Assembly: GCA_016207515.1 (NCBI GenBank)
Contig: JACQPN010000002.1
Location: forward strand, 262,350 to 326,349
Source: Euryarchaeota archaeon
GTDB lineage: Archaea > Thermoplasmatota > SW-10-69-26 > JACQPN01
Length of the DNA stretch: 64,000 bases
Direction: 5' to 3'
Position numbers and translations under genes: made by a program. Every line of letters begins with the position of its first letter. The stretch's first letter is position 1. Under the pieces are notes generated by a model. It made no database searches. It was not told the DNA's origin and saw only the letters and a program-made list of their open reading frames with translations. Positions 41,974 to 63,492 of this stretch are shown piece after piece.

Positions 41974-43122
41974 ATGGATCCTGCGTTGAAGGATTTGCCA
42001 GACGTCGCGCCAAAGCTGGCCCAGTTTGTTGCGGAAACCGCAGCACGCCCACAGAGCACAGAACATCTCACCGGGCTTTTACGAGCCCTCGAACGACCAA
42101 TGGAAACAGGAGGCGCCCACGGGGTCGCGGGAAAGGCCTACCTGATGGGACTTTTCGCAGACCGCGCGATTGAAGGGCTCATCGAAGAGGATTATGTGCC
42201 TCACCGCGACCTCCGAGAATTCTTCCAGGCGCTAGGCGCAAACTACAATCGTTTGATTACGAACGATTGGGAGTTGCCGTTGGAATGGACCGAGTTACTC
42301 GAATCATACCAGAACGCCCTCATGGCCGCTGACAAAATCGACAAGCGCACGCTCCAAACCTTCGATTACATGGTTCCAATTAGCCACCACGATAGCGTCG
42401 CGGTAAAGGTATATCTCGCGCCAATCACCGGGCCATTCAAGGTCTCGGGATACAGTTATCCTTATTATCTTGACCTAGACTCGGCGCTTGCCGATCCAAA
42501 GAAAATTGAGGCCGTCGTCGACGCTTATGTGTGGAAGCTTCGCCTTCTTGAGGAAAAGATGACGGCCGAAAACGGCGAAAAGATTGATAAGATTTGCATG
42601 ATAGCCAAGAGGAAAGGGCCGGTCGGGGCGTTGTCACTGGCAAGCCACATTGCCGCAAAATTCGAACGCCCCGCCATGGTGTTCCGCGAGCGCGAGGTCG
42701 AAAGACCCCACAAGCTCCAAGGTGCGCCGCTCGAGCCAGGTGACCAGATTGCGATTGTTTATGACCTTAGTGTCGGCGGAGGAGGAATTGAAAGCGCTGC
42801 TGAATATCTGGTCGCAGAGGAGCCTACTTGCCGCGTCAGGGGCGCAGTCGTTCTGTGTGATTATGGACACCGCGCGAAAAGCCGACTGAAGGCCAAGAAC
42901 ATCGACCTAAATGCCATCGCCACACTGACACCGGACGATTACCGCGCAATCCGGGAACCTCAGTTGAAACGCGAAGCCGAAGGGCTCGATCAGGCCCTTC
43001 ATGACGGCCGCTTGACAGAACAAGAATATTTTGAGCGGCGGGGAGCGCTTAAGAACGATTTCGCTGACCTCGCATGGTTGAAGTTGTGTCCCACGTATGA
43101 TTCCGCCCAGTCCACCGAATGA
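41974..43122 (+). CDS. Phosphoribosyltransferase-fold protein with N-terminal helical extension
   Basis: 382 residues from the ATG at 41974; an in-frame GTG at 41962 is an alternative, and a TATA-like CTTATTTTT lies about 30 bases upstream. The N-terminal ~190 residues are unassigned. From about 205 an orotate-PRTase-like fold is visible: KRKGPVGALSLASHIAAKF, then the PRPP-binding-type motif IVYDLSVGGGGIESAAEYL. This motif lacks the second acidic residue of the usual DD pair. The end overlaps the SIR2 gene by 26 bases, so the two are coupled and probably work together. Confidence 0.65.
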   Translation: MDPALKDLPDVAPKLAQFVAETAARPQSTEHLTGLLRALERPMETGGAHGVAGKAYLMGLFADRAIEGLIEEDYVPHRDLREFFQALGANYNRLITNDWELPLEWTELLESYQNALMAADKIDKRTLQTFDYMVPISHHDSVAVKVYLAPITGPFKVSGYSYPYYLDLDSALADPKKIEAVVDAYVWKLRLLEEKMTAENGEKIDKICMIAKRKGPVGALSLASHIAAKFERPAMVFREREVERPHKLQGAPLEPGDQIAIVYDLSVGGGGIESAAEYLVAEEPTCRVRGAVVLCDYGHRAKSRLKAKNIDLNAIATLTPDDYRAIREPQLKREAEGLDQALHDGRLTEQEYFERRGALKNDFADLAWLKLCPTYDSAQSTE

Positions 43123-44239
43123 CCCAACCGACTTCCAAGCTGCCATGGCGACCGTCAAGGGCGACGTGCTTAACAAATATCAAACGGAGGCAAGCGTAGA
43201 TCCGTTCTTTGAAGCGGTTGTTGACTTCTTTGTTGTTCGTACGGCCACACGGTTTTACCAGGCTCACATGGAAAACAGACCTCCAGACGATTCCGAACTT
43301 GAACCTGCGTTTGACACTTCGTTGCTCATGAATTACCTTCCAAAGTATCCCCAGCTTCCATCCGTCTTCCTTATTGATTTGCTTGTGCAACGGTACGTCA
43401 CTCAAGACCGAGCGAAATTGTACAAGGTTGCGACCCAGTTAGATGGGAACGGGGGTCTCGTCATTGCCGGCGCGGGAATCTCATACGGGCCTGGCGTCGG
43501 AATCGCGTACCCGGAGATGGTGCGCTCCTGCGCGAAAGGCCTAGGGATTGACGTAGTCGAAAGTGACCCCGCCTCTCCGCATCTTCTGGAACCGTGGTGC
43601 CGTGCCCTTGAAGAGAAAGGTCTTCAACAACAATTCCAACTTGAGTTTAAGAACGCCAGCGAGGAATGCAACCCGACACGGGCACATGATTGGATAAGCG
43701 CATGGCAGTATGGAGGGGTCGTAGACCACGTAGCCACCACAAATTGGGACGACCTCTTCGAAAAGGCGTTCGAAAAAATCGCGAGCGCCGCGATCCTGAG
43801 AGGAAAATTACCGGAGGTCATTATTGGGAACCAGACGGCTACACTTACACGCGTCCTCTGGAAGTTGCACGGTTCCGTGCGCCAACCAAATCAACCTTGG
43901 ATCCTTTGCCATAGGAGCACAGTTGCAGAAGCCCTGAAGGAAACCTACCGAAAAGGCCACAAGAGTCATTGTGTGCTGGTAGTCGGCTCTCGGCTCGCCG
44001 ACAGTGCCCTCAACGAGTTCTTAGAGGTCGAGATGCGCCACAAGGTGAAGGGGCGAGATATGCTCCGAATTGAACCGGCCGAATCGTCAAAGGCCGACCC
44101 TTGGGTTGTGGTCCTGTCCGCTGACATCGCCTGTGAGATAATAGGTAAACACATGAAAAGCGGAAAAGCTAGCCACATTCTTGCGTGGATGGAGCACCTT
44201 CATGCCGACGCGTCCGGTATGAAGAAAGTGGCATCCTAG
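43097..44239 (+). CDS. SIR2-domain protein (predicted NADase/deacylase effector)
   Basis: 380 residues. A unique helical N-terminus (about 1-115) precedes the SIR2 fold: LVIAGAGISYG (NAD loop, residues 121-131), HVATTNWDDLFEKAF (211-225), LWKLHGSV (255-262) and VVGSRLADSALNEFL. This pattern (GAGIS, TTN-x-D, KLHGS) is that of SIR2-like effectors which cleave NAD in several prokaryotic immune systems. No zinc-ribbon Cys set of classical sirtuins is seen. It is coupled to the PRTase upstream. Confidence 0.8.
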   Translation: MIPPSPPNDPTDFQAAMATVKGDVLNKYQTEASVDPFFEAVVDFFVVRTATRFYQAHMENRPPDDSELEPAFDTSLLMNYLPKYPQLPSVFLIDLLVQRYVTQDRAKLYKVATQLDGNGGLVIAGAGISYGPGVGIAYPEMVRSCAKGLGIDVVESDPASPHLLEPWCRALEEKGLQQQFQLEFKNASEECNPTRAHDWISAWQYGGVVDHVATTNWDDLFEKAFEKIASAAILRGKLPEVIIGNQTATLTRVLWKLHGSVRQPNQPWILCHRSTVAEALKETYRKGHKSHCVLVVGSRLADSALNEFLEVEMRHKVKGRDMLRIEPAESSKADPWVVVLSADIACEIIGKHMKSGKASHILAWMEHLHADASGMKKVAS

Positions 44240-44391: not shown

Positions 44392-44403
44392 AGGTTCTAA
44401 CCT
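44392..44403 (+). promoter_or_regulatory. Palindrome AGGTTCTAACCT at the probable promoter of the ubiquitin-like operon
   Basis: A perfect 5-base inverted repeat with a 2-base spacer overlaps a weak TATA-like TTCTAA, 16-27 bases before the TTG start at 44419. This fits a leaderless start and possible repressor control. The gap 44240-44418 shows no gene. Confidence 0.35.
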
Positions 44404-44418
44404 CTGGGCGAACACGAA

Positions 44419-44742
44419 TTGTTTTGCCCGCTAGGGGCAGATGGTGAATGCACGAAGATCGTCGTAACACCGACAATCGGAAACACGGAGCCAGTACCGT
44501 TGGACGTGAATCCTTTGGATTCCGTCCGACAAGTGCGCGACAAGGCGGCAACGACCATGCTGGTCGAGAACGACTCAATCGAACTCGTCCACAAGGGAGA
44601 GAAGCTGCCGCTTGACGCGACGTTGCAGAACGCCGGCATCACCGAGGGAACCAGCCTCAAGGCGATGCCGGTCAAGCAATATGGGTACCGTTTTCTTGGA
44701 TTTTCATCCCGAAAAATTTACCCAAAATCTCGGCGATGCTGA
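44419..44742 (+). CDS. Ubiquitin-like beta-grasp protein
   Basis: 107 residues from a TTG; the only other in-frame start-like codon after the upstream stop at 44398 is a CTG. Residues 12-86 form a ubiquitin-type fold: a beta hairpin TKIVVTPTIG...PVPLDV, helix SVRQVRDKAATTM, then SIELVHKGEKLPLDATLQNAGITEGTSL (equivalent to ubiquitin's L-I-F-x-G-K-x-L-x-D-x-x-T-L-x-x-Y-x-I), given here in pieces. It is clearly paralogous to the Ubl half of the next protein. The tail after KAMPVK (about 20 residues) lacks a terminal Gly-Gly, so conjugation by its own end is doubtful unless the reading frame is wrong or the tail is processed. Confidence 0.75.
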   Translation: MFCPLGADGECTKIVVTPTIGNTEPVPLDVNPLDSVRQVRDKAATTMLVENDSIELVHKGEKLPLDATLQNAGITEGTSLKAMPVKQYGYRFLGFSSRKIYPKSRRC

Positions 44743-44815
44743 CGACGGCGACGTGCATCCTTTTTGTATCAAGAAGCCGCAAACTCCTCCTGCCCATCTC
44801 GGGCCGGAGAATTGA
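44681..44815 (+). CDS. Possible 44-residue protein overlapping the Ubl gene end
   Basis: The ATG at 44681 lies in a different frame from the Ubl gene and runs to six bases before the Ubl-E2 start. The product contains FLDFHPEKFTQNLGDADDGD and ends PPAHLGPEN; it is acidic and Pro-containing, with no known motif. It could be a real small subunit, or the true C-terminal part of the Ubl if a frameshift exists. Confidence 0.3.
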   Translation: MGTVFLDFHPEKFTQNLGDADDGDVHPFCIKKPQTPPAHLGPEN

Positions 44816-44821
44816 AAAAAC

Positions 44822-45508
44822 GTGAAACTGCGTGTATCGTCGAGCATTGGAGTTGGGAAGGATTGTGAGGTGGATGCTGAAGCCCTGGAGACCGTTCGGC
44901 AACTGAAAGGACGCGTCGCCGAGATTCAGGCGGTGGACGCGGACTCCATCAGTCTTGCGCACAAGGACCAGACGCTTCCTGATGGTGCCACGGTGAAGAA
45001 CTGTGGCCTCAAGGAAGGCGACAGCCTCAGCGTCATCCCACGCGATCCCAAAGGGGGCCTCAATGGAGTGGGCCCCTCTTCTCCTTTTTCCAATAACATC
45101 CTGAAAAACAGGCTTGTAGTCGAAGCGCAACGCATCCACGACGCCCGCATCCCGCTCCGCGCGGTCACGCCCCTCGAATGGACCGCTACGCTACCGGGCC
45201 GGGGACGGTGGAGGCACCAGACTTTCCAGATAACGATCCTTCTCCCGTACAACTACCCGGCGCGGCCGCCGATGGTCACGTTCGTGACGAAGCCTAGCCC
45301 ACGGCACCCGAACGTGAGCGACGAGGGCTGGGTGTGCTTGAACTACTTGCAGGACTCGTGGACTCCCGTCCACAACCTCGTGAGCGTCTACCGTGGCCTC
45401 GAATGGCTCCTCGAGAACCCGAACTACCACCACCCCTTGAACTTCGACGCGATGCCCCCGATGGACCTGGGGTTTGGGAGGTTTTGGCGTGCCCTCACCC
45501 GCATATAA
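44822..45508 (+). CDS. Ubiquitin-like protein fused to an E2 conjugating enzyme
   Basis: 228 residues from a GTG. Residues 1-75 are a ubiquitin-like fold (ETVRQLKGRVAEI helix, SISLAHKDQTLPDGATVKNCGLKEGDSL split across strands). It ends in RDPKGG, Gly78-Gly79, followed by a short linker. Residues ~92-228 are a full E2 core: the YNYPARPPMVTF strand-loop (144-155), HPN (162-164), the catalytic Cys in DEGWVCLNYL (Cys172), W180-TP, and the C-terminal ENPNYHHPLN. All hallmark E2 positions are present, so the enzyme should form a thioester. The Gly-Gly at the junction could be cut by the JAMM protease encoded next, releasing a conjugatable Ubl. Confidence 0.88.
   Translation: MKLRVSSSIGVGKDCEVDAEALETVRQLKGRVAEIQAVDADSISLAHKDQTLPDGATVKNCGLKEGDSLSVIPRDPKGGLNGVGPSSPFSNNILKNRLVVEAQRIHDARIPLRAVTPLEWTATLPGRGRWRHQTFQITILLPYNYPARPPMVTFVTKPSPRHPNVSDEGWVCLNYLQDSWTPVHNLVSVYRGLEWLLENPNYHHPLNFDAMPPMDLGFGRFWRALTRI
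45053..45089 (+). other. Terminator-like hairpin at the Ubl/E2 junction
   Basis: GGGGGCC (45053-45059) can pair with GGCCCCT (45071-45077) and is followed by a pyrimidine tract ending in five Ts (45085-45089). The 5' arm includes the codons for Gly78 and Gly79. Related hairpin-plus-pyrimidine elements are at 39792 and 41035. Confidence 0.45.
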
Positions 45509-46094
45509 CGCCATCATGGGCCTCCTCATCGGCGGCCTCGTTCTAGCCGGGTTTCAACTTCTCAAAAAGCGAAATGAACACGACAAGGTAACGGAGATCA
45601 CGCTCAAGGAGCACCCGACGACGGTCGCCGAAACCGACCTCGCCAAACTCGCGAAGACGGACACCATCCTGATCGATCCGTCCGTGGTCGCGCTCATCTT
45701 CGCCTGGGCCGCCAACCATCCCAAGAACGAGGTCGGCGCCCTACTCATCGGCCAACCCGATGGAAGATTCCTCAAAATCCATGACCTGGTCCGCGCCGAG
45801 AACGTGGGAACGGCAACCGAGATTGATTTCACGCCCCGGGACTTCGAGCGCGCACGCGCGAAGACAGGGAACGGTCGCATGGTCGTGGGCTGGGCACACT
45901 CGCATCCCACGTACACCGCCTTCATGTCCGGAACCGATCAACGGTTCCAATCGCAGGGCCAGGGCCTCTACCCGGACTACGTTGGACTCGTCATCGACCC
46001 GTTCAGGCCACGGGGCGTGGAGTTCGCCTTCTACCGCGTCACGAATGACGAGGTCGTGCAACTGCCGCACCACTACTGGAGGCGCTCAGAGTGA
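45489..46094 (+). CDS. Membrane-anchored JAMM/JAB-family isopeptidase
   Basis: 201 residues from a GTG at 45489, chosen because GGAGG lies 7 bases upstream (45477-45481); it overlaps the E2 gene end by 20 bases. A TM helix (about residues 8-25) is followed by a JAB1/MPN domain with the full metalloprotease signature: Glu81 in NEVGALLIG, His137-x-His139 in WAHSHP, Ser147 and Asp150 in FMSGTD (HxH-x7-S-x2-D). The predicted role is to mature Ubl precursors after Gly-Gly and/or remove Ubl from targets at the membrane. Confidence 0.9.
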   Translation: MPSPAYNAIMGLLIGGLVLAGFQLLKKRNEHDKVTEITLKEHPTTVAETDLAKLAKTDTILIDPSVVALIFAWAANHPKNEVGALLIGQPDGRFLKIHDLVRAENVGTATEIDFTPRDFERARAKTGNGRMVVGWAHSHPTYTAFMSGTDQRFQSQGQGLYPDYVGLVIDPFRPRGVEFAFYRVTNDEVVQLPHHYWRRSE

Positions 46095-46795
46095 AGCATG
46101 AACGCCAGACGCTTATCAAGGGATGGGACCAAGCGGCCATCAGCCGGGCTTCGGTGCTGGTGGCGGGGGCGGGCGCCATTGGGTCCGCCCTCGTCACCAT
46201 GCTCACCCGACTAGGCGTTGGCGCGATCACCATCATCGACCCCGACAGGCTCGAAGCGCAAAATCTGGAGAATCAGGCCTACGACGAGAGCGACCTCGGG
46301 AAATCGAAGGCATTCGCGCTCGCCGAGCGGATGCACCGTATCGACCCAGCGCTCCGCGTCACGCCGGTCGCGTGCCGGATTGAGGACTATCGGGGACCCG
46401 TTGACGCGGATTACTTGTTCGGTTGCTTCGACAACGTCGCAGCGCGCCACTACATCAATTTCATGGCCGTCACCGGCGGGAAGACGCTGGTTGACGCTGG
46501 AATCGAGAACTTTTGGGGCGCGATTAAAACCATCATCCCAGGCAAGACCGCGTGCCAAGGGTGCCTTCCGACGGTCCAGTCGAGTGCAGTGAAGGCGTCT
46601 TGTTCCAGCGACCCGATTCCAAGCACGTTCGTGACGGCAAACATGGCCGCAGGCTTGCAGGCGATCCAGTTCCTAAAACTGGTACGCGGCGAACGGGTTC
46701 ACTCGTACGTCTACTTCGACCTCGCCCGCAGTACCCTCTACAACTACGATTACAAGCCGAACCCCAAATGCGAGATTTGCGGGGGATCGACGTGA
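46091..46795 (+). CDS. E1-like ThiF/MoeB-family activating enzyme
   Basis: 234 residues; the GTG overlaps the JAB stop (GTGA). ERQTLIKGWDQ resembles the E1 N-terminal Arg motif, followed by the nucleotide loop GAGAIGS (26-32), IIDPDRLEAQNLENQ (49-62) and DLGKSKA. Zinc-binding pairs are CQGC (155-158) and CEIC (227-230). A candidate catalytic Cys171 lies in KASCSSDP, just before the AAGLQAIQFLKL helix. The usual NLxRQ motif reads NLENQ, so the conserved Arg is replaced. It should adenylate the Ubl C-terminus and pass it to the E2. Confidence 0.87.
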   Translation: MKHERQTLIKGWDQAAISRASVLVAGAGAIGSALVTMLTRLGVGAITIIDPDRLEAQNLENQAYDESDLGKSKAFALAERMHRIDPALRVTPVACRIEDYRGPVDADYLFGCFDNVAARHYINFMAVTGGKTLVDAGIENFWGAIKTIIPGKTACQGCLPTVQSSAVKASCSSDPIPSTFVTANMAAGLQAIQFLKLVRGERVHSYVYFDLARSTLYNYDYKPNPKCEICGGST

Positions 46796-46998
46796 CGGGT
46801 ATCGTCGACCGAATCGCTTCGCAGTTCCTCTTCACCTTCGCACTGATGGGTGACCTCATGCTGAAGACGCGAGTTCCGTTGCTCCTTCCTTTGGCGTTGC
46901 TCGCGTTGGTCTACGTGTGGCCCTTCGCCTTGTTCCTCATCTTCTGCGCATGGGCGTCCGTGGGGAAGACGGAGTGGTTGGAGAGGTATCGACGATGA
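46792..46998 (+). CDS. Small two-helix membrane protein 1
   Basis: 68 residues; its GTG overlaps the E1 stop (GTGA). Residues 30-56 form a hydrophobic hairpin (VPLLLPLALLALVYVW, FALFLIFCAW) after a short amphipathic N-terminus, with a charged end KTEWLERYRR. No family recognised. Strict coupling indicates a component of the Ubl system. Confidence 0.65.
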   Translation: MTGIVDRIASQFLFTFALMGDLMLKTRVPLLLPLALLALVYVWPFALFLIFCAWASVGKTEWLERYRR

Positions 46999-47186
46999 AG
47001 ACCATTCCGGCCAACGTGCGACTACTTCCCTGGTGGCATGTCTTTGGCCAAGGCCTCATCGTCGGCCTCCTAGTCGGCTTCTTCGTCACGTTCAACATAC
47101 TGCTACTGGTACTCGTCGGCGTCGTCACCCTGGCCTACCATGTGGAGTACGCGTGGCGAACCGAGTGGAGGAAACAGCGTGGCTGA
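46995..47186 (+). CDS. Small two-helix membrane protein 2
   Basis: 63 residues; the ATG overlaps the previous stop (ATGA). A hydrophobic stretch covers about residues 19-48 (GLIVGLLVGFF, ILLLVLVGVVTLAY), and the tail is basic (TEWRKQRG). No family recognised. Confidence 0.65.
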   Translation: MKTIPANVRLLPWWHVFGQGLIVGLLVGFFVTFNILLLVLVGVVTLAYHVEYAWRTEWRKQRG

Positions 47187-47367
47187 CTACTCGCCCCACG
47201 TCAAGATCCTCACGTTCTTCCTGATCCTAGTCCTCACGTACTTCATCATGGCCTTCACCTTCAACATCGAGAACCTCTGGCGAAGCCTCATCATCGTCAT
47301 CGCCGTCATCGTCCTCGTAATCACGGTCCTCGCACGCTTCGGAGGCAACCTTGGCGGGACCGACTAG
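47179..47367 (+). CDS. Small two-helix membrane protein 3
   Basis: 62 residues; the GTG overlaps the previous gene by 8 bases. Two hydrophobic helices (about 9-25 and 31-49) are followed by the tail ARFGGNLGGTD, which carries two Gly-Gly pairs. Its end overlaps the ATPase gene by 17 bases. Confidence 0.62.
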   Translation: MADYSPHVKILTFFLILVLTYFIMAFTFNIENLWRSLIIVIAVIVLVITVLARFGGNLGGTD

Positions 47368-49714
47368 AATCCTAGGCTTCAACCCGAAGCAGGCCCAGCA
47401 CAAGGTTCCCTGGATCCCCGCCGACTGGATTCTGACGATTGATCTGGATGGCGTGCCGCGGCTCTACTTCGACTTCTGGCGGACCGGCCTGCTCGGGCGG
47501 GAAAGGAACGGGAAAATCCAGCAACGCGCGATTGAAGCCTTGTCGAGCGACTACGTTCTTCACGCCAGGCCCGAAGCGCCACCACAAACGAACCTCCGTT
47601 ACGCCTATTCGTGCACGTACTCGAACGACCGCCTCCCGGAAGCCTGCATGACCCTACTCCAACTCGGCATCAAAACGCGCCTCCACCTACTCGTTCAAGA
47701 CCGTGGACATCTGGCGAGCTTCGCCGTCGCCACGGAGCGGCCCGTGCCCCACGTGCTTCGTCAATTCTTCCGCGACCTCGAAGAAATCACGTCCCAAGAT
47801 TTCGAAGCCGTCGCGGCCGGCCACACGCTGCGACCCAAGCACCTAACGCGATTCACGCTACCAACTCTTCCGGGTCTTCTCTCAGCAGCGCCAACGGTTC
47901 TTCCGCTCGAGTCCTCGACGCCCCCGCATGGCGCGGCAATCCAGCTGGGCGAAATTCTGAGCCCCATCAACGGCAAACCCATCGGGCCCGCTTTCCTCAC
48001 TCTTGACGCCCTGAACCATCATGTATTGGTCGCTGGAACGACTGGCGCAGGAAAGACGAACACCGTCCTCCGCATGATCCAAGAGACCCACGGTCAAGTC
48101 GAAGGGATACTCGTTTTCGACGTGAAACAAGAATACCGAACCCTGCACGCTTCTCTGAACGCCAAAGTCTATGGCTTCACCGGTCGAAACCTCCTCACCC
48201 ACAACCTCCTGAAACCAAGTGGCCCGCCCGCGCAATGGGTCAAGGAATTCTCATCGATCTTCAGCGAAGTGATCAATCGCTACGTCCCGGCTGTCGGAAG
48301 CAAGGACATCGTGGCCGAAACCCTCGACAAACTCTACCGGGAACGAGGCATCTACGAAGACGGAGTCAACTACCCACACATCGGAGACCTCATAGAAGCA
48401 CTTGAAAAGAGGCCCACGAGCGGCCGGGAAGCCGGATGGAGCTCGTCGGCGCTACGCGTCCTTCGCTCGCTCATGATCGGCACCACTCGACAGGCCTTCT
48501 GCGTTCGAGAAGGAATCGCCCTCGAAGCACTCCTCAACGGAGTAACGGTCGTAGAACTCGACGGCCTCGGAGATCCCGCAGGCAGCGCGCTTCTCGTCAG
48601 CGTCCTTCTCCAAAAAATACGCGACCGCCTCCAACGCGAAAAAACGGAAGGCCTACGACACCTCATCGTGTTCGAAGAAGCCCAACACTTACTCGCACTC
48701 GGGCAAGAATCCACGTCAGTCCTCACGACCACATGTCGGGAAATACGATACCTCGGCGTCGGACTAGTCTTCGTGACCCAGATGCCGAACGAGTTCAGCA
48801 AACACGCCCTCGCAAACGTCAACACCACCATCATCCACAAACTCATCCGACCACAGGACCAGCACACGGCCGCCGCTCTACTCCGACTAAACGACGACGC
48901 GGAGGACGCCCAAGCACGGCTTGGCGTGGGACAAGCCCTCGTTCGATCGGACGCGCTCAATCTCGTCCAAATCCCCGAAATCCAGCGGCCCGAAGTAAGG
49001 GACGTTGACCTGTCCCAAACAGTCCCAAACCCCGAAGAGCGGTCCCCAACACATGCGGAGCGCCACGAAGTCGAAAAACGCCTCACAAGGCTCACGCCTC
49101 GCGATTGGGCCGTCTTCAACGCCATCGCCGGGTCCCGGGCAATCAGCCCACGCGCCATCCGGGAACTCCTCAAGCGCAGCCAAAGCGCCGTCAGAGCCAG
49201 TCTGACGAGACTCATCAACCTCGGCCTCGTAGCCTACCTCGAAGCCAAAACCAACGAAGGGAGACCACCAAGCATCTACTTCCTACGCCCCTACGGCACC
49301 GACGCCTACACGATGAAAGCCGGAAGGTCGCCAGATCGAATCCACGCCGCCGCAGCGGACCACAAGGAACTCGTCGAGGAAGTAACCCGTATCCTCGGAG
49401 TCGAACGAATCCCGGACCGACACTTTGACCTCCTCTACGCCGCCGAAGGCCACGAACGAGCAATCGAGATCGAAACCGGCGCCAACAAGAACGACCAGAT
49501 ACTCATCAACGTCACCAAATCCATCGAACTCCAAGGAGAGGCACACTTTGTAGCCGCCGACGACACCACCCTCAACAGAATCCTCCAAATCACCGCCAAG
49601 CACAGCTTCGACACGAGGACCATGATCGCAGTCAATGTCACGACTCTGAACGAGATTCGAACGGGCCGATGGCGCGCCTACACGTTTGAGACCGAGAAAC
49701 CCCAGACTACGTGA
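47351..49714 (+). CDS. HerA/FtsK-type ATPase with winged-helix and nuclease-like C-terminal domains
   Basis: 787 residues from a TTG overlapping the preceding gene. An N-terminal ~215-residue unassigned domain is followed by a HerA-type P-loop core: Walker A GTTGAGKT (229-236), FDVKQEY and Walker B LIVFEEAQ (438-445), then a TQMP sensor. A winged helix lies near 585-650 (RAISPRAIRELLKRS). The C-terminal ~90 residues contain HFDLLYAAEG...AIEIETG, resembling the (D)...E-x-E core of restriction-endonuclease-fold domains, which is uncertain. It is the last gene of the Ubl operon and is likely a hexameric DNA-translocating motor. Confidence 0.78.
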   Translation: MAGPTRILGFNPKQAQHKVPWIPADWILTIDLDGVPRLYFDFWRTGLLGRERNGKIQQRAIEALSSDYVLHARPEAPPQTNLRYAYSCTYSNDRLPEACMTLLQLGIKTRLHLLVQDRGHLASFAVATERPVPHVLRQFFRDLEEITSQDFEAVAAGHTLRPKHLTRFTLPTLPGLLSAAPTVLPLESSTPPHGAAIQLGEILSPINGKPIGPAFLTLDALNHHVLVAGTTGAGKTNTVLRMIQETHGQVEGILVFDVKQEYRTLHASLNAKVYGFTGRNLLTHNLLKPSGPPAQWVKEFSSIFSEVINRYVPAVGSKDIVAETLDKLYRERGIYEDGVNYPHIGDLIEALEKRPTSGREAGWSSSALRVLRSLMIGTTRQAFCVREGIALEALLNGVTVVELDGLGDPAGSALLVSVLLQKIRDRLQREKTEGLRHLIVFEEAQHLLALGQESTSVLTTTCREIRYLGVGLVFVTQMPNEFSKHALANVNTTIIHKLIRPQDQHTAAALLRLNDDAEDAQARLGVGQALVRSDALNLVQIPEIQRPEVRDVDLSQTVPNPEERSPTHAERHEVEKRLTRLTPRDWAVFNAIAGSRAISPRAIRELLKRSQSAVRASLTRLINLGLVAYLEAKTNEGRPPSIYFLRPYGTDAYTMKAGRSPDRIHAAAADHKELVEEVTRILGVERIPDRHFDLLYAAEGHERAIEIETGANKNDQILINVTKSIELQGEAHFVAADDTTLNRILQITAKHSFDTRTMIAVNVTTLNEIRTGRWRAYTFETEKPQTT

Positions 49715-51013: not shown

Positions 51014-52366
51014 TCAAGACTTCTGCAAAACTATGATGGATTCCTTCTCAATCTTAGCGTTGTGCTTCGTCGGATACTGCATTACCCGGTTCTTGATGTC
51101 GTACCGGGCGGTCTTAACATGCTCGAACCCGACCTCCTCCCCCAACCAGGTCAAGGTCTTCGCGGTTGGAACGGTACGGCCTCCCGTCGTACTGTTGCCG
51201 ACTATTATGACGCAATGGCCGCCGGAAGGAAGGTAGTCGAAAAAGATCTTCAGCCGCGAACTCATATCATTGAAGTATTGCCACAGAACGCGCGCTTTGT
51301 GGGAGCGCTGTTCGTCGATCAGGCCTTCGATTAGTCCGTCAAGTGGACGGAATCCGAGTGCTGGCGGAACCTGGACGGTCTCTCCGACTATGGTCCGTCC
51401 GACAAACTTCCTTTTTAGTACGACTACTTGTTCCTCGTCCAAAAAGCGGCCGACGAAGTACTCGAGACGGTGTCGCCGCCAGTACTCGATTGCATTGCAG
51501 TACGGTGGAGAGAAAAGGATGAGGTCTGCCTCCAGCTTTGCGGCTCGCTTTGACGTGCCTAGGCCGGCGGAATCTGATTGTGATATGGTAGAAGGCGTTA
51601 GGCGCGTCTTGTTCTCTTGAAGATACTGAGTGAACTCGCCCATCCTTTGGAGGCCCAACGTTGCCCGGCGCTCGAACTCGCTGAACACATCAATCTCGTA
51701 TCCTTCCCGAATCTTCTCCTTCATGTGCTTCGTGATTTCGAGCCCGCTTACCGGTTGAGGGTCAGCCAGACTGATGCGGCGAATCGAGCTCAGGAGGCAG
51801 GCCCAGAAGAATCTCCTAACGTCGCTTCCTCGCTGGGGCAGGCCGCCGTTGAAGATAGAATGGTCAATCCGCGCGTAGTCGACGAGGGCGTAGCGGCGAA
51901 ACCAGTAGGTCAGACGCTCTAGGTCCCGCGCCTTCACCTGGGCAAGGCTCTTTCGCATAACGTCGTGCCGAATGTCTCGGAACTTCCGGATCTCAATCTC
52001 ATCCTGGTTGCGTCGGAATCTCTGGAGGGCGTCCGACAGGTCCTTCCAAGCTGCGGCCAGCGTCTCTTCAGAAATTGGAGTGGTCTTTACGCGAGCGAAG
52101 AACACGCTCACGGGATCAATGTCTATTGAGAGGGACGGGATTCCGGCGGCTTTGGCCTCGACGGCCACTGTCCCGACGCCAGCCATGGGGTCGATGACGG
52201 CCTTAGGATCTGCGGACCGAAGAACGTGCTCCACAAGGGGTGGGTGAAACTTGCCCGGGAAGCGAAAAAGGTCGTGGGTGAACCTATGTCCGTGACCTCC
52301 CTCCCATTCAAGCAAGTTTATGTCTGGTACCATGTGACTACCCATGAGTGGCGTCCTTGACGTCAA
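51014..52366 (-). CDS. DNA methyltransferase (N4-cytosine/N6-adenine type)
   Basis: 450 residues. Motif I DPMAGVGTVAVEA lies at 59-71, the acidic SIDIDPVSV follows, and the catalytic motif SPPYCNAIEYW is near residue 285, after a long insertion that probably includes the target-recognition region. SPPY is typical of amino-methylating enzymes. The start (TTG at 52366) overlaps the stop of the GHKL-nuclease gene; ATGs at 52345 and 52333 are alternatives. Coupling to that gene suggests the modification half of a restriction-modification-like system. Confidence 0.85.
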   Translation of the reverse strand: MTSRTPLMGSHMVPDINLLEWEGGHGHRFTHDLFRFPGKFHPPLVEHVLRSADPKAVIDPMAGVGTVAVEAKAAGIPSLSIDIDPVSVFFARVKTTPISEETLAAAWKDLSDALQRFRRNQDEIEIRKFRDIRHDVMRKSLAQVKARDLERLTYWFRRYALVDYARIDHSIFNGGLPQRGSDVRRFFWACLLSSIRRISLADPQPVSGLEITKHMKEKIREGYEIDVFSEFERRATLGLQRMGEFTQYLQENKTRLTPSTISQSDSAGLGTSKRAAKLEADLILFSPPYCNAIEYWRRHRLEYFVGRFLDEEQVVVLKRKFVGRTIVGETVQVPPALGFRPLDGLIEGLIDEQRSHKARVLWQYFNDMSSRLKIFFDYLPSGGHCVIIVGNSTTGGRTVPTAKTLTWLGEEVGFEHVKTARYDIKNRVMQYPTKHNAKIEKESIIVLQKS

Positions 52367-54861
52367 CCTTTCGGTAATTTGCCCTGTATGGCGCCCTTCG
52401 GCGGAGGCGGGGCGACCGTGACGCCTTCCCCAGTCGGGTCACGTTTTAGCGCATCGAGGATTGTCTCCGGCGGGGCTTTCAGCTCGAATTCGTAAGTTTG
52501 GGGATTCTTGATGTAGATCATCCCAGTCGTGATTTGTATGGTCTCCAGGATGTGGATTAGTTCCGGCCGCCTGAGCTTCCGCTTGCGGATCCTTTCGTCG
52601 GCCAGAATCATTCCGGGCTCAGGAACATTCGTGTCGTCCTTTGTCATCTGTTCGTGCGCGACCTGAAGAACCAGTTTCATGACGCCTAGGTCCGGCATCT
52701 CGCGCCACGTTTCTTCAATGAAGGCCTCCAAATCATCCGGATAGGTCCAAGTTGTGAGGATTTTCTCAATCTTGTCATAGGTGAATGGACGCCGCTTGTG
52801 CAGCCGAAGCAACTTGGCTACGCCCGCAACCGTGATGAGCGGAACCTTTCCTTTCGTTTCGCGCAACAGCGCCGCGTCCTTTCCTCCGAGCCCATCCTTG
52901 GCGAATTCGCGGGCAATCGCAATCGCGTTCGTGCATCCGTTCTCTTCGCTGTGGCGAGTAACCTCCGCTTCCGCGAGACCCTTATGTGTGATGACGCCCT
53001 TGCTGCCTTTCGCCTCCACTGAGATTTTCAGATTTGGCGCCCCTGGCTTAGGGATCTCGATGATACCGTCCGGTTGGTCTGATTCTCCTAGGTGCTGCGC
53101 AACGAGCCGTAAGCTCTGGAAAGCGCTGATAATCGCCTTCTCGAATGGCGTATCACCCGCATACGAGGCCTCTTCGATAGCTTTGATGTGCTCTTCCACT
53201 TCGTCGATGACGAAGCCAGCGGCGCTGCGGACGGCCACGTCGATGATTTCGGCGGTGCGCTCCACGATCGGCTCGTCGACACCCTCGGAACGCAGGTAAC
53301 CGGTGGCCATCTGCGTCCCCGCCAGCACTTCTCCGATTACCTGCCGAAGCTGTTTCGAATTCGGCCCCAGTTCATCCAGCGCCGTAATCAGCGGGTGGTC
53401 CTCGTTGACGAGGATTTTCGTGGCCTGCGGATCGTATCTGGCCGCCGGTCCCGACTCTCCAAGCGTCGAAAACTCGATTTCCAGCGACTCGAGCCCTTTT
53501 GCAGCAGTGTCGCCGCGCGTCAATCCGGCCAGCGCCATCTGGCCCAGAATCGGCGAAAACGTCTTCACTCTGCGGCCGAAGGCCTGCGGTTCGTACTCCT
53601 CCGCCTTCTCGATTTCTTGGGCCTTGCCTCGAGTATAGTTAAAGAGAGTCCGCATCACGGTCCTTGCTATCTGCGCCTCGTGGGTGTTCTCCGAAACGGC
53701 GTTACGCTGAACGAGGAGAACCCCGTCGAGTCCTGGTATCTCCACACGAGCCAAGAATTTGGACCAGTACGCGTGGCTGCGCTGGGTAACTCCGAACAAC
53801 TCATCTTCGGGGTTGATTAGCTTCCCGTTGGCGTAAATGGCAAATCCGTTGTTGGTGTAACCCCTCTCAATCAGTTTGTCCGTGGTCAAAGAATTCTTCG
53901 TGAGCACCGCGTTTCCTATGACAGGCCCAAGTTCAGGGATCACGAGCCCCTTGACATTTTGCTGCACGTTCTGTGGGTTTGGGACGCCTTCAGTTCTTAA
54001 GTCGAAATACTTCTCAGGCACATCCTCGGGCTTTGCCTCTCCCAGAGCCTCGGCCCAGTAAGCCTGAAGGGCCTCCTTCAGCTTCTTGCGAAAGCCCAGA
54101 TCGATCATGTCGACCTTGACTTCAATTTCGTCTGCCGCGATGTCTCTCCGCGGGACCTCTTGCTTCTCGAGAAGGACCTTGAATCTGGCCGAGATCGGCA
54201 AGGCGGTCGCAATCATGCGTCGGAGGATTCCGATCTTTAGCGCGCGTCCCAGATGGTCCTCGTCAATCTCCTCAACGAGCGCTAGCGTCCAGTTCGGCCA
54301 ACCTTCTTCCCAGGGCTTTGGCAACTCCTTCAAGTATGGTTCAAGGAGCGGCTTCGCTTCATTGATCGTCGTCCGAAAGACTGTAAATGTCGGGGCTTTT
54401 CCGCCCTTCTTTTCTTTGATCTCGTCTTGTCCGACGGAGACGACCCGTACGTTGCCGCCGACGCACGCGACATGCGTTAACCTGGCGCCTAACGCAAAGG
54501 CGGCGAGCTTGCCGACGCCGAACTTCCCAATCTGCATACGGTTGTTGTCGATTCGTGCCTGGCCGCCCTTCTTGACCTTCGGACTATCCGCGACTCGCCA
54601 AAGATTCTTGAGGCCCTTGAGGTCCATCGATTTGCCGTCGTCGAGCACCGCAAGAGCGCCCTTGCTGTCCGCAGGAAGAGATACGTGGCACGTGGTCGCG
54701 CCCGCGTCGTAGCTGTTGCAAATCAACTCCTCGATCGCCTTGCGAGGGTTGGAGTAGAGTTGTGCAGAGACGTGGCGGATAATGTCGTAACTGATGTCCA
54801 CTTCGACGACGTCCTCGGCCGTGGCTCCAGCCGCCTTGAACCTGGTTCCAATTTTTGCCAT
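52363..54861 (-). CDS. GHKL-ATPase (MORC/Hsp90-like) fused to a PD-(D/E)XK nuclease-like domain
   Basis: 832 residues. The N-terminal Bergerat fold has the N-box AIEELICNSYDAGA (about 42-55), VLDDGKSMD and GKFGVGKLAAFALG (about 112-125). A transducer-like middle follows. Around residues 580-640, QPDGIIEIP...ISVEAKGSKG gives a D...E-x-K nuclease core, and the C-terminal ~130 residues are unassigned. GHKL plus nuclease fusions next to methyltransferases are known in restriction-like loci. It is transcribed first, with the methyltransferase coupled downstream; no specificity subunit is seen. Confidence 0.78.
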   Translation of the reverse strand: MAKIGTRFKAAGATAEDVVEVDISYDIIRHVSAQLYSNPRKAIEELICNSYDAGATTCHVSLPADSKGALAVLDDGKSMDLKGLKNLWRVADSPKVKKGGQARIDNNRMQIGKFGVGKLAAFALGARLTHVACVGGNVRVVSVGQDEIKEKKGGKAPTFTVFRTTINEAKPLLEPYLKELPKPWEEGWPNWTLALVEEIDEDHLGRALKIGILRRMIATALPISARFKVLLEKQEVPRRDIAADEIEVKVDMIDLGFRKKLKEALQAYWAEALGEAKPEDVPEKYFDLRTEGVPNPQNVQQNVKGLVIPELGPVIGNAVLTKNSLTTDKLIERGYTNNGFAIYANGKLINPEDELFGVTQRSHAYWSKFLARVEIPGLDGVLLVQRNAVSENTHEAQIARTVMRTLFNYTRGKAQEIEKAEEYEPQAFGRRVKTFSPILGQMALAGLTRGDTAAKGLESLEIEFSTLGESGPAARYDPQATKILVNEDHPLITALDELGPNSKQLRQVIGEVLAGTQMATGYLRSEGVDEPIVERTAEIIDVAVRSAAGFVIDEVEEHIKAIEEASYAGDTPFEKAIISAFQSLRLVAQHLGESDQPDGIIEIPKPGAPNLKISVEAKGSKGVITHKGLAEAEVTRHSEENGCTNAIAIAREFAKDGLGGKDAALLRETKGKVPLITVAGVAKLLRLHKRRPFTYDKIEKILTTWTYPDDLEAFIEETWREMPDLGVMKLVLQVAHEQMTKDDTNVPEPGMILADERIRKRKLRRPELIHILETIQITTGMIYIKNPQTYEFELKAPPETILDALKRDPTGEGVTVAPPPPKGAIQGKLPKG

Positions 54862-61206: not shown

Positions 61207-63492
61207 TTGCGAATCACGTATCTCGGCAACTACGGACGAGACCCCGTCAAGGTCAGCCTCTTCCTTGAAACCGAACACGATGTCGTCATATCCGCCCTGA
61301 GTGCAAACGGACCTTCGGTCATCCAGGCATTCAAGAAATTCGTCCTCAAGCCCTCGAATCCCAAAAACGGCATCGACTACGCGCAACTCTCAACGCTCTT
61401 ACAGGGCCACAACACTAACCTTGAGATACACACGACCAAGGCCACCATACCGATGGTCGAACGGGTTGCGCCGCCCCGGACTCAGGACTTCGACTGGCTC
61501 GCGAACGCGCTCAAGAAGCTAGACCGGGACTTGGCCAAGGAGAAACGGGAATACGATGAATGGAAGGGCGTCAGGGACCTAGACGAAGCGAAGGACCATT
61601 TTCACCGCCGCCGCGAAGAGATCTTCGACCTGAATCAAAAGATCGTCTCGAACCTCCAAGAACCCCACTTCGCCGTCGCCAGCCACTACGTTCCGAGCCA
61701 CGCCCAAACCGTCAACAGGTTCCGCCTCGACGAACTACGAGACCGGGCGAAAGAGCGGCACAGTACCCTCAAGCAACGAATAGACTTCACGCGACGAAAC
61801 CGCATCCAAGAACTAGAGAAGAAACGCGCCGGCCTGGTGAAAGACATTGAGGCGGAGCGAAAGACCGCCCGCGCTAGAGACGATGACGCGGCAACGGCAT
61901 TGGATGAAGGAATCGGGGTCGCCGCCATCCTGACTATCCGAAGTGGCCCAATCCTTGCACGAGGAAAGAAGAATCAGGCAATCGGTCGCGCCTTTGACCA
62001 AGTGCTGTCCGAGACGGAGAGCCTTCGAGCAAAACTGGACGCGTCAGGCGTGACAATGGGCGACGCTGATCCTCGTCTTGCCCTTTCGTCCATCTTCGCA
62101 GCAAGTCTTCCTGGATCCGACGCCAATGAAAACCACGTAGCCCAAGAGTTAAACCGCGCCATCGAAACAGCCTTCCATCTCCAACCCCGCGACGTCACGA
62201 ACGCATCATTGTCAAAGATGGTATCAGGACTTCTGGGTCAAGCACCGCCCCCGATGCAGATCCCCACGCTCGACAGATTTCCGTCGCCCGCGCACACGAA
62301 GGGTCCGCGGTTGACGTACCTGGGCCTCGCCTTGTCAAATGGCTTGCGACCAACGACGCATCCAATGTTCTACAACTTGGATGAGCAGGGCCCTCGTCAC
62401 ACGGCCGTCATAGGCGGCTCCGGATCGGGCAAGAGCGTGACCGCTTCCCTGATCGTCGAGGGCGCGCTTCTCAACAAGATTCCCGTCCTCGTCATGGACC
62501 CGACTCGCTCGTGGACGGGTTTTCTCGTGCCCGCGTCCACGTTCGCATTGAAAAAGTACGAACGCTTCTCGATGAAGCCCGAGATGGCGCGGCCGTTCGA
62601 GCTTGAAGTGCGGGACTCGTGGGACACGACAATCGAGAAAGTCATGGAACGGCGAAGCCTCACGATACTCTCCTCGCCGAACCTGACCGACGAGCAAGAG
62701 GCCGGCCTGGTCGACCAGATTCTCGGCGAACTCTTGGAGAAAATGAAGACTTGGCCGGACTCGAAGGAGCTGCGCCTGCTCCTCGTTCTCGAAGAAGCGC
62801 ACCGCTATCTTCGGGACAAGAAACTTCAACCAACACTCGAACTCTTCGCGCGAACTGCGCGGGCGAAAGGCGTCGGACTAATGGCCGTCTCCCAGAACGC
62901 CATAGACCTACCGCCGGCCATCAGGAACAACTGCGCCACAGTCATCCAGATGAACACGCACTACGGGGAAGACCTGAAACGCGCCGCCCAGACCTTCGGC
63001 TCCGACTTCCAGAAAACGATCCCGAAGCTCCAGCAGGGCCAAGGCGCATTCCATTATCCCGAATACGGCTCGACGTTCGTCGCATTTCGTCCGCCCCTGC
63101 ATAACCACCACGCCGCGTCTGAAGCGGTCGTTCAGTTCTTTTCGGTGACGAAGGAATTGAAACGCACCGTGGACGACCTTTTCGCGCTCCAAGCGGTGCC
63201 GGACGAACACGTGACGCGCATGCCAAGTGCCAGTGCCAATGGCACAAGTGGCACAGAATCAACGCCAAGCGTTCCTGAGGCCGTAAACGAGTCTTTGGGG
63301 CGTGCAAGTGCCAAAGTGGCACGCGATTGGCACGACGTGGTGGCACAGTTGGCACAGGGTGGCACTCGCCCGCGTCTCATGGAAGTTCGCAACGCAATCA
63401 CGGCGGCCGATCTCAAATGTCCGAGCCGACGTTCCATCTATCGTCATTTGCGTCAACTAGCGCGCCAGTCCAATGGATTGGCGCAAGAATAG
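61207..63492 (+). CDS. HerA-type ATPase with coiled-coil insertion and C-terminal winged helix
   Basis: 761 residues from a TTG preceded by GGTGA (61195-61199). An N-terminal beta domain (about 1-90) and a long charged helical region (about 95-230, KKLDRDLAKEKREYDEWK and ELEKKRAGLVKDIEAERK) come first. The HerA core follows: Walker A GGSGSGKS (403-410), MDPTRSW, Walker B LLLVLEEAHRYL (524-535) and an arginine-bearing ARTARAKG. A Ser/Thr-rich linker leads to a terminal helix-turn-helix (SRRSIYRHLRQLA). Probably a hexameric DNA pump acting with the nuclease encoded upstream. Confidence 0.8.
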   Translation: MRITYLGNYGRDPVKVSLFLETEHDVVISALSANGPSVIQAFKKFVLKPSNPKNGIDYAQLSTLLQGHNTNLEIHTTKATIPMVERVAPPRTQDFDWLANALKKLDRDLAKEKREYDEWKGVRDLDEAKDHFHRRREEIFDLNQKIVSNLQEPHFAVASHYVPSHAQTVNRFRLDELRDRAKERHSTLKQRIDFTRRNRIQELEKKRAGLVKDIEAERKTARARDDDAATALDEGIGVAAILTIRSGPILARGKKNQAIGRAFDQVLSETESLRAKLDASGVTMGDADPRLALSSIFAASLPGSDANENHVAQELNRAIETAFHLQPRDVTNASLSKMVSGLLGQAPPPMQIPTLDRFPSPAHTKGPRLTYLGLALSNGLRPTTHPMFYNLDEQGPRHTAVIGGSGSGKSVTASLIVEGALLNKIPVLVMDPTRSWTGFLVPASTFALKKYERFSMKPEMARPFELEVRDSWDTTIEKVMERRSLTILSSPNLTDEQEAGLVDQILGELLEKMKTWPDSKELRLLLVLEEAHRYLRDKKLQPTLELFARTARAKGVGLMAVSQNAIDLPPAIRNNCATVIQMNTHYGEDLKRAAQTFGSDFQKTIPKLQQGQGAFHYPEYGSTFVAFRPPLHNHHAASEAVVQFFSVTKELKRTVDDLFALQAVPDEHVTRMPSASANGTSGTESTPSVPEAVNESLGRASAKVARDWHDVVAQLAQGGTRPRLMEVRNAITAADLKCPSRRSIYRHLRQLARQSNGLAQE
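63227..63365 (+). repeat. Cluster of TGGCAC / GTGCCA hexamers
   Basis: Within 139 bases near the end of the HerA gene there are seven TGGCAC (63240, 63249, 63317, 63328, 63341, 63350, 63360) and three of the reverse complement GTGCCA (63227, 63233, 63308). The encoded linker varies, so the pattern is not simply a peptide repeat. Confidence 0.55.

Follow-up and report, generated by a model that had tools for sequence, protein, structure and literature searches.

A ubiquitin-like conjugation cassette associated with membrane mini-proteins and a HerA/VirB4-superfamily ATPase in Thermoplasmatota

The window analysed here is a 64,000-nt stretch (G000:C2:262350-326349) of a metagenome-assembled genome of the phylum Thermoplasmatota (2.67 Mb, 98% complete). 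Eight open reading frames (ORFs) on its + strand, spanning 44419-49714, encode a standalone ubiquitin-like protein (Ubl), a Ubl-E2 fusion, a JAB protease, an E1, three membrane mini-proteins (TM1, TM2 and TM3) and an ATPase. An earlier note, made from the letters of the window, had proposed that this combination forms a system, and the same grouping was found again in a second copy in the genome, in genomes G195 and G221, and at two loci of G321. We read the operon as a Ubl conjugation cassette coupled to a membrane-docked DNA motor of the HerA/VirB4 superfamily, whose likeliest use would be the handling of foreign DNA in defence (rough probability, 0.5). The basis in the sequence is fourfold: intact active sites, recurrence, the swapping of modules and the position of a glycine. 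The cluster is probably a real, undescribed machine, and perhaps an immune one.

Gene content of the operon

The features of the operon are as follows. Loci are assigned to cassette types I and II, with and without an HPN motif in the E2, and to motor types alpha and beta.

44419..44742, + strand: standalone Ubl, 107 residues (Pfam ubiquitin, 6e-6)
44822..45508, + strand: Ubl-E2 fusion, 228 residues (Pfam ubiquitin at the N-terminus, 7e-9; UQ_con, 5e-22)
45053..45058, + strand: Gly78-Gly79, where JAB is predicted to cut between Ubl and E2 (Gly column; split gene at locus L159)
45516..46094, + strand: JAB/JAMM metalloprotease, 192 residues (Pfam Prok-JAB, 7e-9; alignment)
46091..46795, + strand: E1, 234 residues (Pfam ThiF, 2e-41)
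46792..46998, + strand: TM1, two-helix membrane mini-protein (hydropathy; co-inheritance with cassette type)
46995..47186, + strand: TM2, membrane mini-protein (hydropathy)
47179..47367, + strand: TM3, two-helix mini-protein (hydropathy; travels with the ATPase)
47351..49714, + strand: HerA/VirB4-superfamily ATPase, 787 residues (Pfam HerA_C, 2e-11; DUF87, 5e-10)
49043..49711, + strand: ATPase tail, winged helix plus C-terminal domain (Pfam winged helix; alignments)

The earlier description of eight co-directed, mostly overlapping genes was borne out: all of the ORFs are present on the + strand, their domains were found by Pfam, and neighbouring genes mostly overlap (GTGA, ATGA, 8 nt or 17 nt), the exceptions being a 79-nt gap between Ubl and Ubl-E2 and a 7-nt gap between Ubl-E2 and JAB. 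The start codon of TM1 is the GTG within a GTGA overlap (46792), that of TM2 lies in an ATGA overlap (46995), and TM3 and the ATPase share 17 nt. By hydropathy, each of the three mini-proteins is predicted to have either a pair of helices or a single long hydrophobic hairpin span, in agreement with their description as two-helix membrane proteins. The middle membrane gene, TM2, is optional and was present in the two G000 copies only.

Alignment of the Ubl-E2 fusion with three relatives placed the Ubl at approximately residues 1-79, the E2 at approximately 96-228, the HPN motif at 162-164 and the cysteine at Cys172, so that the HPN and Cys reported by the earlier note are indeed intact. E2 structures in the PDB matched the protein at 2e-14. 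An inactive E2 was disfavoured, as HPN and Cys are conserved in type I, and Cys and His in type II. When aligned with ubiquitin, every fused Ubl carries a Gly in the column of ubiquitin Gly75 or Gly76, the sequences at this site being PRDPKGG, PANPIGG, PKHAPGS, PSHRTVG, PESELGW, PSAELGG and PESRLGD. At L159, the Ubl is a gene of its own that ends in PEAKFGA-stop, and the E2 is the next gene. Because the Gly is found in all fused Ubls and the L159 gene is split at this very place, the Ubl-E2 fusion is probably a precursor cut by the neighbouring JAB. The simplest reading likens it to the ubiquitin precursor of Caldiarchaeum, which is cut by a JAMM protease after Gly-Gly (PMC6043591). A fused Ubl-E2 with a Gly site, together with a relative split at that Gly, would offer a simple model for the joint supply of the two proteins.

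The standalone Ubl is the weakest gene of the eight; its only in-frame start is TTG and it has no C-terminal Gly. Such a gene lies upstream of Ubl-E2 in L150 as well but not in L004, L037, L064 or L139, which makes it an optional component of the system. In the window and in L150 it may be undergoing decay or may serve a regulatory role. The one in L150 (L150:4280-4492) has 70 residues, lies directly upstream of a type II Ubl-E2 and has no Gly at its end.

The JAB protein has the full active site that the earlier note described (by alignment, Glu72 together with His128, His130 and Asp141 of an HxHx7SxxD motif). Its transmembrane helix fared less well: the hydrophobic N-terminus is approximately 16 residues long, is not called by a 19-residue hydropathy window, and is missing in L004, L037, L139, L150 and L158. 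We therefore rejected the JAB as an integral membrane protein in general, given that the anchor is short and absent in most relatives; at L159 the JAB has two fused helices. The E1 consists of one adenylation domain with a zinc CxxC/CxxC arrangement, and the profile of its family came nearest to UBA5 (4e-33) and MoeB/ThiF, which are single-domain E1s. Cys171, in SCSxDPIPS, is the candidate catalytic residue; it is aligned in all E1s and common to types I and II, and the alignment does not put it exactly on a UBA5 Cys.

The ATPase belongs to the HerA/FtsK/VirB4 superfamily, with a Walker A motif at approximately residues 229-236 and a Walker B motif that reads LIVFEEAQ. In a profile search of the PDB its family matched HerA (1e-26), antiphage HerAs, DptH (4.5e-18) and VirB4-like proteins (2e-6), and PADLOC returned mad8, HerA and DndH. 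Against NCBIfam, CedD was the best curated model for all four ATPases scanned (1e-18 to 9e-30; 1e-18 for that of the window), followed by VirB4 for the beta type. The HerA-type motor of the earlier note was thus right at the level of the superfamily, while the closest curated model, below its cut-off, is the DNA-transfer ATPase CedD. A tail of approximately 220 residues, absent from the earlier note, contains a winged helix (residues 565-632) and an invariant motif (H, D, ExETG and N) found in both alpha and beta motors. When the tail was compared with known families, MobC was matched at 0.026 for L135 only, and the tails of the window and L150 had no match; a nuclease-like or MobC-like fold is possible.

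The matches to CedD and VirB4 raise the alternative that the operon encodes a Ced- or type IV-like DNA transfer machine regulated by Ubl conjugation, in which the mini-proteins would form a pilus or pore and the ATPase would move DNA between or into cells. CedA1 and CedA2 likewise have two helices each and accompany an ATPase of the HerA clade (PMC9905601, PMC11868833). However, the similarity to CedD is confined to the ATPase domain and scores 67-104 bits, far below the cut-off of 600; hydropathy predicted no N-terminal membrane segment in the ATPase; and the PDB search favoured HerA and DptH over VirB4. In addition, no CedA-like multi-helix channel gene was seen on inspection of the operon ORF lists, the rest of the genome not having been searched. 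We consider DNA transfer a distinctly less probable explanation than foreign-DNA handling, although the most credible of its rivals.

Recurrence of the system and exchange of its modules

A search of 390 genomes of this one phylum, plus follow-up, identified the system at nine loci in seven genomes, representing at least six families. Draft genomes are apparently the source of all the loci, several of which are truncated at contig edges. Two E2 genes were found in the window genome with the Pfam model UQ_con, the second of them on contig C8 (L004), where Ubl-E2, JAB, E1, three membrane mini-proteins and the ATPase follow one another as in the window. Identity between the two copies is 39-43% for Ubl-E2, 38-39% for JAB, 49% for E1, 88% for TM3 and 70% for the ATPase. 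With dS near saturation, dN/dS was 0.11-0.38 (Ubl-E2, JAB, E1, TM2, TM3 and ATPase), which indicates purifying selection. Conservation is highest at the motor end and lowest at the conjugation end, a gradient that a fast-evolving recognition side would explain.

A profile of the window-type E1 retrieved four loci at E<1e-87 (both G000 copies, G195 and G221), the next match being at 3.5e-41. In G195 (L037; contig LSSG01000004 of Thermoplasmatales archaeon SG8-52-3, the sole return of a scan of the named-genome collection), Ubl-E2, JAB, E1 and two membrane mini-proteins precede an ATPase that breaks off at the contig end, immediately after Walker A. A beta-type ATPase fragment on contig C6 of this genome (L151:8364-9752) is the apparent continuation of the end of contig C4; it runs into Orc/Cdc6-like AAA sequence, possibly through misassembly. 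The G221 locus (L135) comprises the end of a JAB, an E1 and two mini-proteins, and its ATPase is complete, with a winged helix and ExETG tail of the kind found in the window; G254 (L064) has a Ubl-E2 and the start of a JAB, followed by the contig end. Searches with the ATPase and with a beta profile led to G321, on contigs C42 (6e-175) and C142 (1e-161), respectively; on both contigs the ATPase is downstream of a type II cassette. G356 (L158) carries a type II cassette and reaches a contig edge after an alpha-like mini-protein (z-score 7-8 against the G000 copies).

The loci are built from two modules, a conjugation cassette (Ubl-E2, JAB, E1 and the first membrane protein) and a motor module (the last membrane protein and the ATPase). 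Cassettes assigned to type I, the type with an HPN E2, occur in the window, C8, G195 and G221. The type II E2-like domain lacks HPN and has an invariant Cys and a downstream His, with Cys and GWYxxH invariant in four loci; the type II JAB has HxHx10SxxD and an upstream Glu, and the type II E1 shares only 23-30% identity with that of the window type. In profile-profile comparisons, type II matched type I weakly (P 0.036 for E2, 0.13 for JAB), with the aligned motifs collinear. Alpha ATPases were found in the window, C8 and G321 C42, and beta ATPases in G221, G195 and G321 C142. All four pairings were seen: I-alpha, I-beta, II-alpha (G321 C42) and II-beta (G321 C142). The E1 tree splits types I and II and the ATPase tree splits alpha and beta, each with a bootstrap of 100, and the two splits are incompatible.

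The mini-proteins sort with the modules. The first one follows the cassette, being 65% identical between two type II loci whose ATPases share 24%. The one before the ATPase follows the ATPase, with a z-score of 18.9 for the window against G321 C42 and below 1 against the beta loci. This co-inheritance places the exchange point between the first mini-protein and the one preceding the ATPase. As the pairing of cassette and motor has been retained through module exchange, these results strongly support a functional link between the two. The two-by-two swapping also amounts to a natural experiment on which mini-protein goes with which enzyme.

An accidental arrangement, in which a Ubl operon was inserted beside an unrelated ATPase gene, would suit the type II cassette of L159 and the remaining Ubl/E1/E2/JAB clusters in the phylum: 82 of the 390 genomes have E2 domains, and most of the fetched E2 loci belong to a different cluster (E1, Ubl, E2 and JAB) with no relative of the window ATPase detected in their fetched flanks. 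Against it stand the two copies in one genome, the same order in six of seven readable loci, and the pairing kept by swapped modules; chance grouping was rejected on recurrence and module swapping, and we regard it as very improbable. As signs of such a grouping, the earlier note had named relatives without the membrane proteins or the ATPase and with the E2 Cys lost. Seven loci can be read beyond E1 and the gene that follows it; the same six of them keep both the ATPase and small membrane genes, and the Cys is present in every E2. What recurs is the grouping; the exact eight-gene order is not a conserved unit, since loci can do without the separate Ubl and the middle membrane gene.

The widespread E1, Ubl, E2 and JAB cluster of Thermoplasmatota (L038-L072) is distinct from the motor-linked system. 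Another Ubl cluster, L003 in G001 (of the same order as the window genome), has overlapping genes for a cysteine-rich RING-like ORF, E1, Ubl, E2 and JAB. Among viral contigs, the ATPase scan returned no relative and the E1 scan only distant ThiF relatives; plasmids yielded no relative of the type II Ubl-E2 or JAB. ATPase relatives in plasmids and phages were distant, and four plasmid neighbourhoods of such relatives had no Ubl genes in their annotation. The ATPases of G072 and G186 were set aside as TraG-like loci without Ubl genes.

Proposed mechanism and genomic surroundings

From these features we infer a series of chemical steps, a direction of control and an immune role. JAB would cut Ubl-E2 after the Gly at the ubiquitin Gly75/76 position, releasing mature Ubl and E2. 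The minimal, UBA5-like E1 would then adenylate the Ubl and hand it to the E2 Cys, and the E2 would tag membrane targets, with TM1 as adaptor or substrate. The ATPase ring, held at the membrane by TM3, would bind DNA through its winged helix and C-terminal domain, and the motor complex would be switched on and off as Ubl is attached and then removed by JAB. Handling of foreign DNA, as in defence, would be the likeliest use. Of the earlier note's reading, membrane association is supported by the predicted helices and a conjugation cycle by the complete active sites; the JAB anchor is not conserved, and an antiviral role and movement of DNA by the motor would go beyond what the sequence shows. 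If the reading is true, the recurrent coupling to a membrane-docked DNA motor would give prokaryotic Ubl tagging a new type of partner and a switch open to direct test. More tentatively, and at somewhat less than even odds, reversible Ubl tagging may gate a membrane-bound DNA translocase or nuclease made of two interchangeable modules and serving archaeal immunity or control of DNA entry, which would constitute a new class of machine.

The surroundings of the window copy are compatible with a mobile defence system. GC content drops from 61-64% in the first 40 kb to 54-60% in the rest of the window, and the low-GC part contains an HD-domain gene, an ORF that by inspection reads like a tyrosine integrase, and the following genes:

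43097-44239: SIR2-domain gene, weakly ThsA-like (PADLOC, 7e-9), directly upstream of the operon and overlapping an unassigned 386-residue ORF
51014-54861, - strand: type II methyltransferase and an overlapping GHKL-type ATPase gene, the ATPase weakly resembling a type II restriction enzyme
61207-63492: second, different HerA-family gene, beside a small nuclease-looking gene

Elsewhere, L139 has TIR and HNH genes as neighbours, and L158 has an integrase-like ORF directly upstream (by inspection).

Several observations weigh against the proposed defence machine. The residue after the Gly varies by locus and Gly-Gly occurs in only some loci; the type II E2 and JAB, which are assigned by motifs and position, had no significant family match; and an alignment-free structure prediction of the ATPase core and tail was discarded, its mean predicted local distance difference test score being 36. 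G360 (L159:5911-8260) carries a type II cassette without an ATPase, consisting of separate Ubl and E2 genes, a JAB with two N-terminal hydrophobic helices, an E1 and a winged-helix-like gene. Finally, L004 and L037 lie in ordinary chromosomal surroundings with no obvious defence island. These surroundings, and the retention of two copies, would favour a membrane protein quality control or stress system with no invader, where the motor would work with Ubl tagging in the manner of a segregase. The DNA-binding winged helix and ExETG tail of the motor, the patchy distribution of the system (7/390 genomes) and the island-like setting of the window copy argue the other way, and we consider quality control improbable.

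Comparison with known systems

Where the role of a prokaryotic Ubl system is known, it is to tag a cyclase, as in cyclic oligonucleotide-based antiphage signalling (CBASS), or to defend against phages, as in Bil. BilABCD likewise has Ubl, E2, JAB and E1 in one operon, and its JAB processes the Ubl to expose a Gly (PMC11354881). However, BilA has two tandem Ubl domains, compared with one per fused gene here, and the Bil E1 has an inactive and an active adenylation domain, compared with a single domain in 234 residues; here, moreover, the Ubl is fused to an HPN-type E2, and membrane mini-proteins and a HerA-family motor are added. CBASS Cap2/Cap3 and the Iyer 6a/6b operons share E1, E2 and JAB chemistry in a mobile setting, but lack the own Ubl, added membrane proteins and motor seen here. 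Type II CBASS has a fused E2-E1 (Cap2) and a CD-NTase, whereas the E2 and E1 here are separate and there is no nucleotidyltransferase among the eight genes. The type II cassette resembles class 6d of Iyer 2006 (Ubl, JAB, E1 and E2) by motif, its E2 lacking the HPN His and having a conserved His C-terminal to the Cys (PMC1779556); unlike in that class, its Ubl and E2 form one protein, with a link to membrane proteins and an ATPase.

The Caldiarchaeum-type ubiquitin cluster also combines an archaeal Ubl, an E1, an HPN-type E2 with Cys and a precursor-processing JAMM (PMC6043591). It includes a RING E3, whereas no RING match was found by Pfam among the operon proteins, and it differs from the operon in the fusion of Ubl to E2 and in the motor and membrane module. 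Ced/Ted DNA exchange systems share two-helix mini-proteins (by hydropathy) and a HerA-clade ATPase, with CedD as best curated model; here, the ATPase bears a winged helix and ExETG tail, is coupled to Ubl enzymes and does not reach the CedD/CedB cut-off. The searchable literature, which did not extend to subscription papers (including Bub), yielded no account of a Ubl cassette joined by membrane mini-proteins and a HerA ATPase. The closest that we found to a published link between a Ubl and HerA is the Sulfolobales Urm1 neighbourhood, where a Ubl gene is associated with a small protein and with a HerA-like, membrane-associated ATPase of the SSO0283 family (PMC2948915). Unlike the operon, it has no E2, JAB or E1 and has a ribosomal protein gene, the ATPases being compared by description. 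As a whole, the system lacks features that define Bil, CBASS, the Caldiarchaeum cluster and Ced, and resembles Bil and other Ubl operons in its chemistry and HerA, Ced and DptH in its motor.

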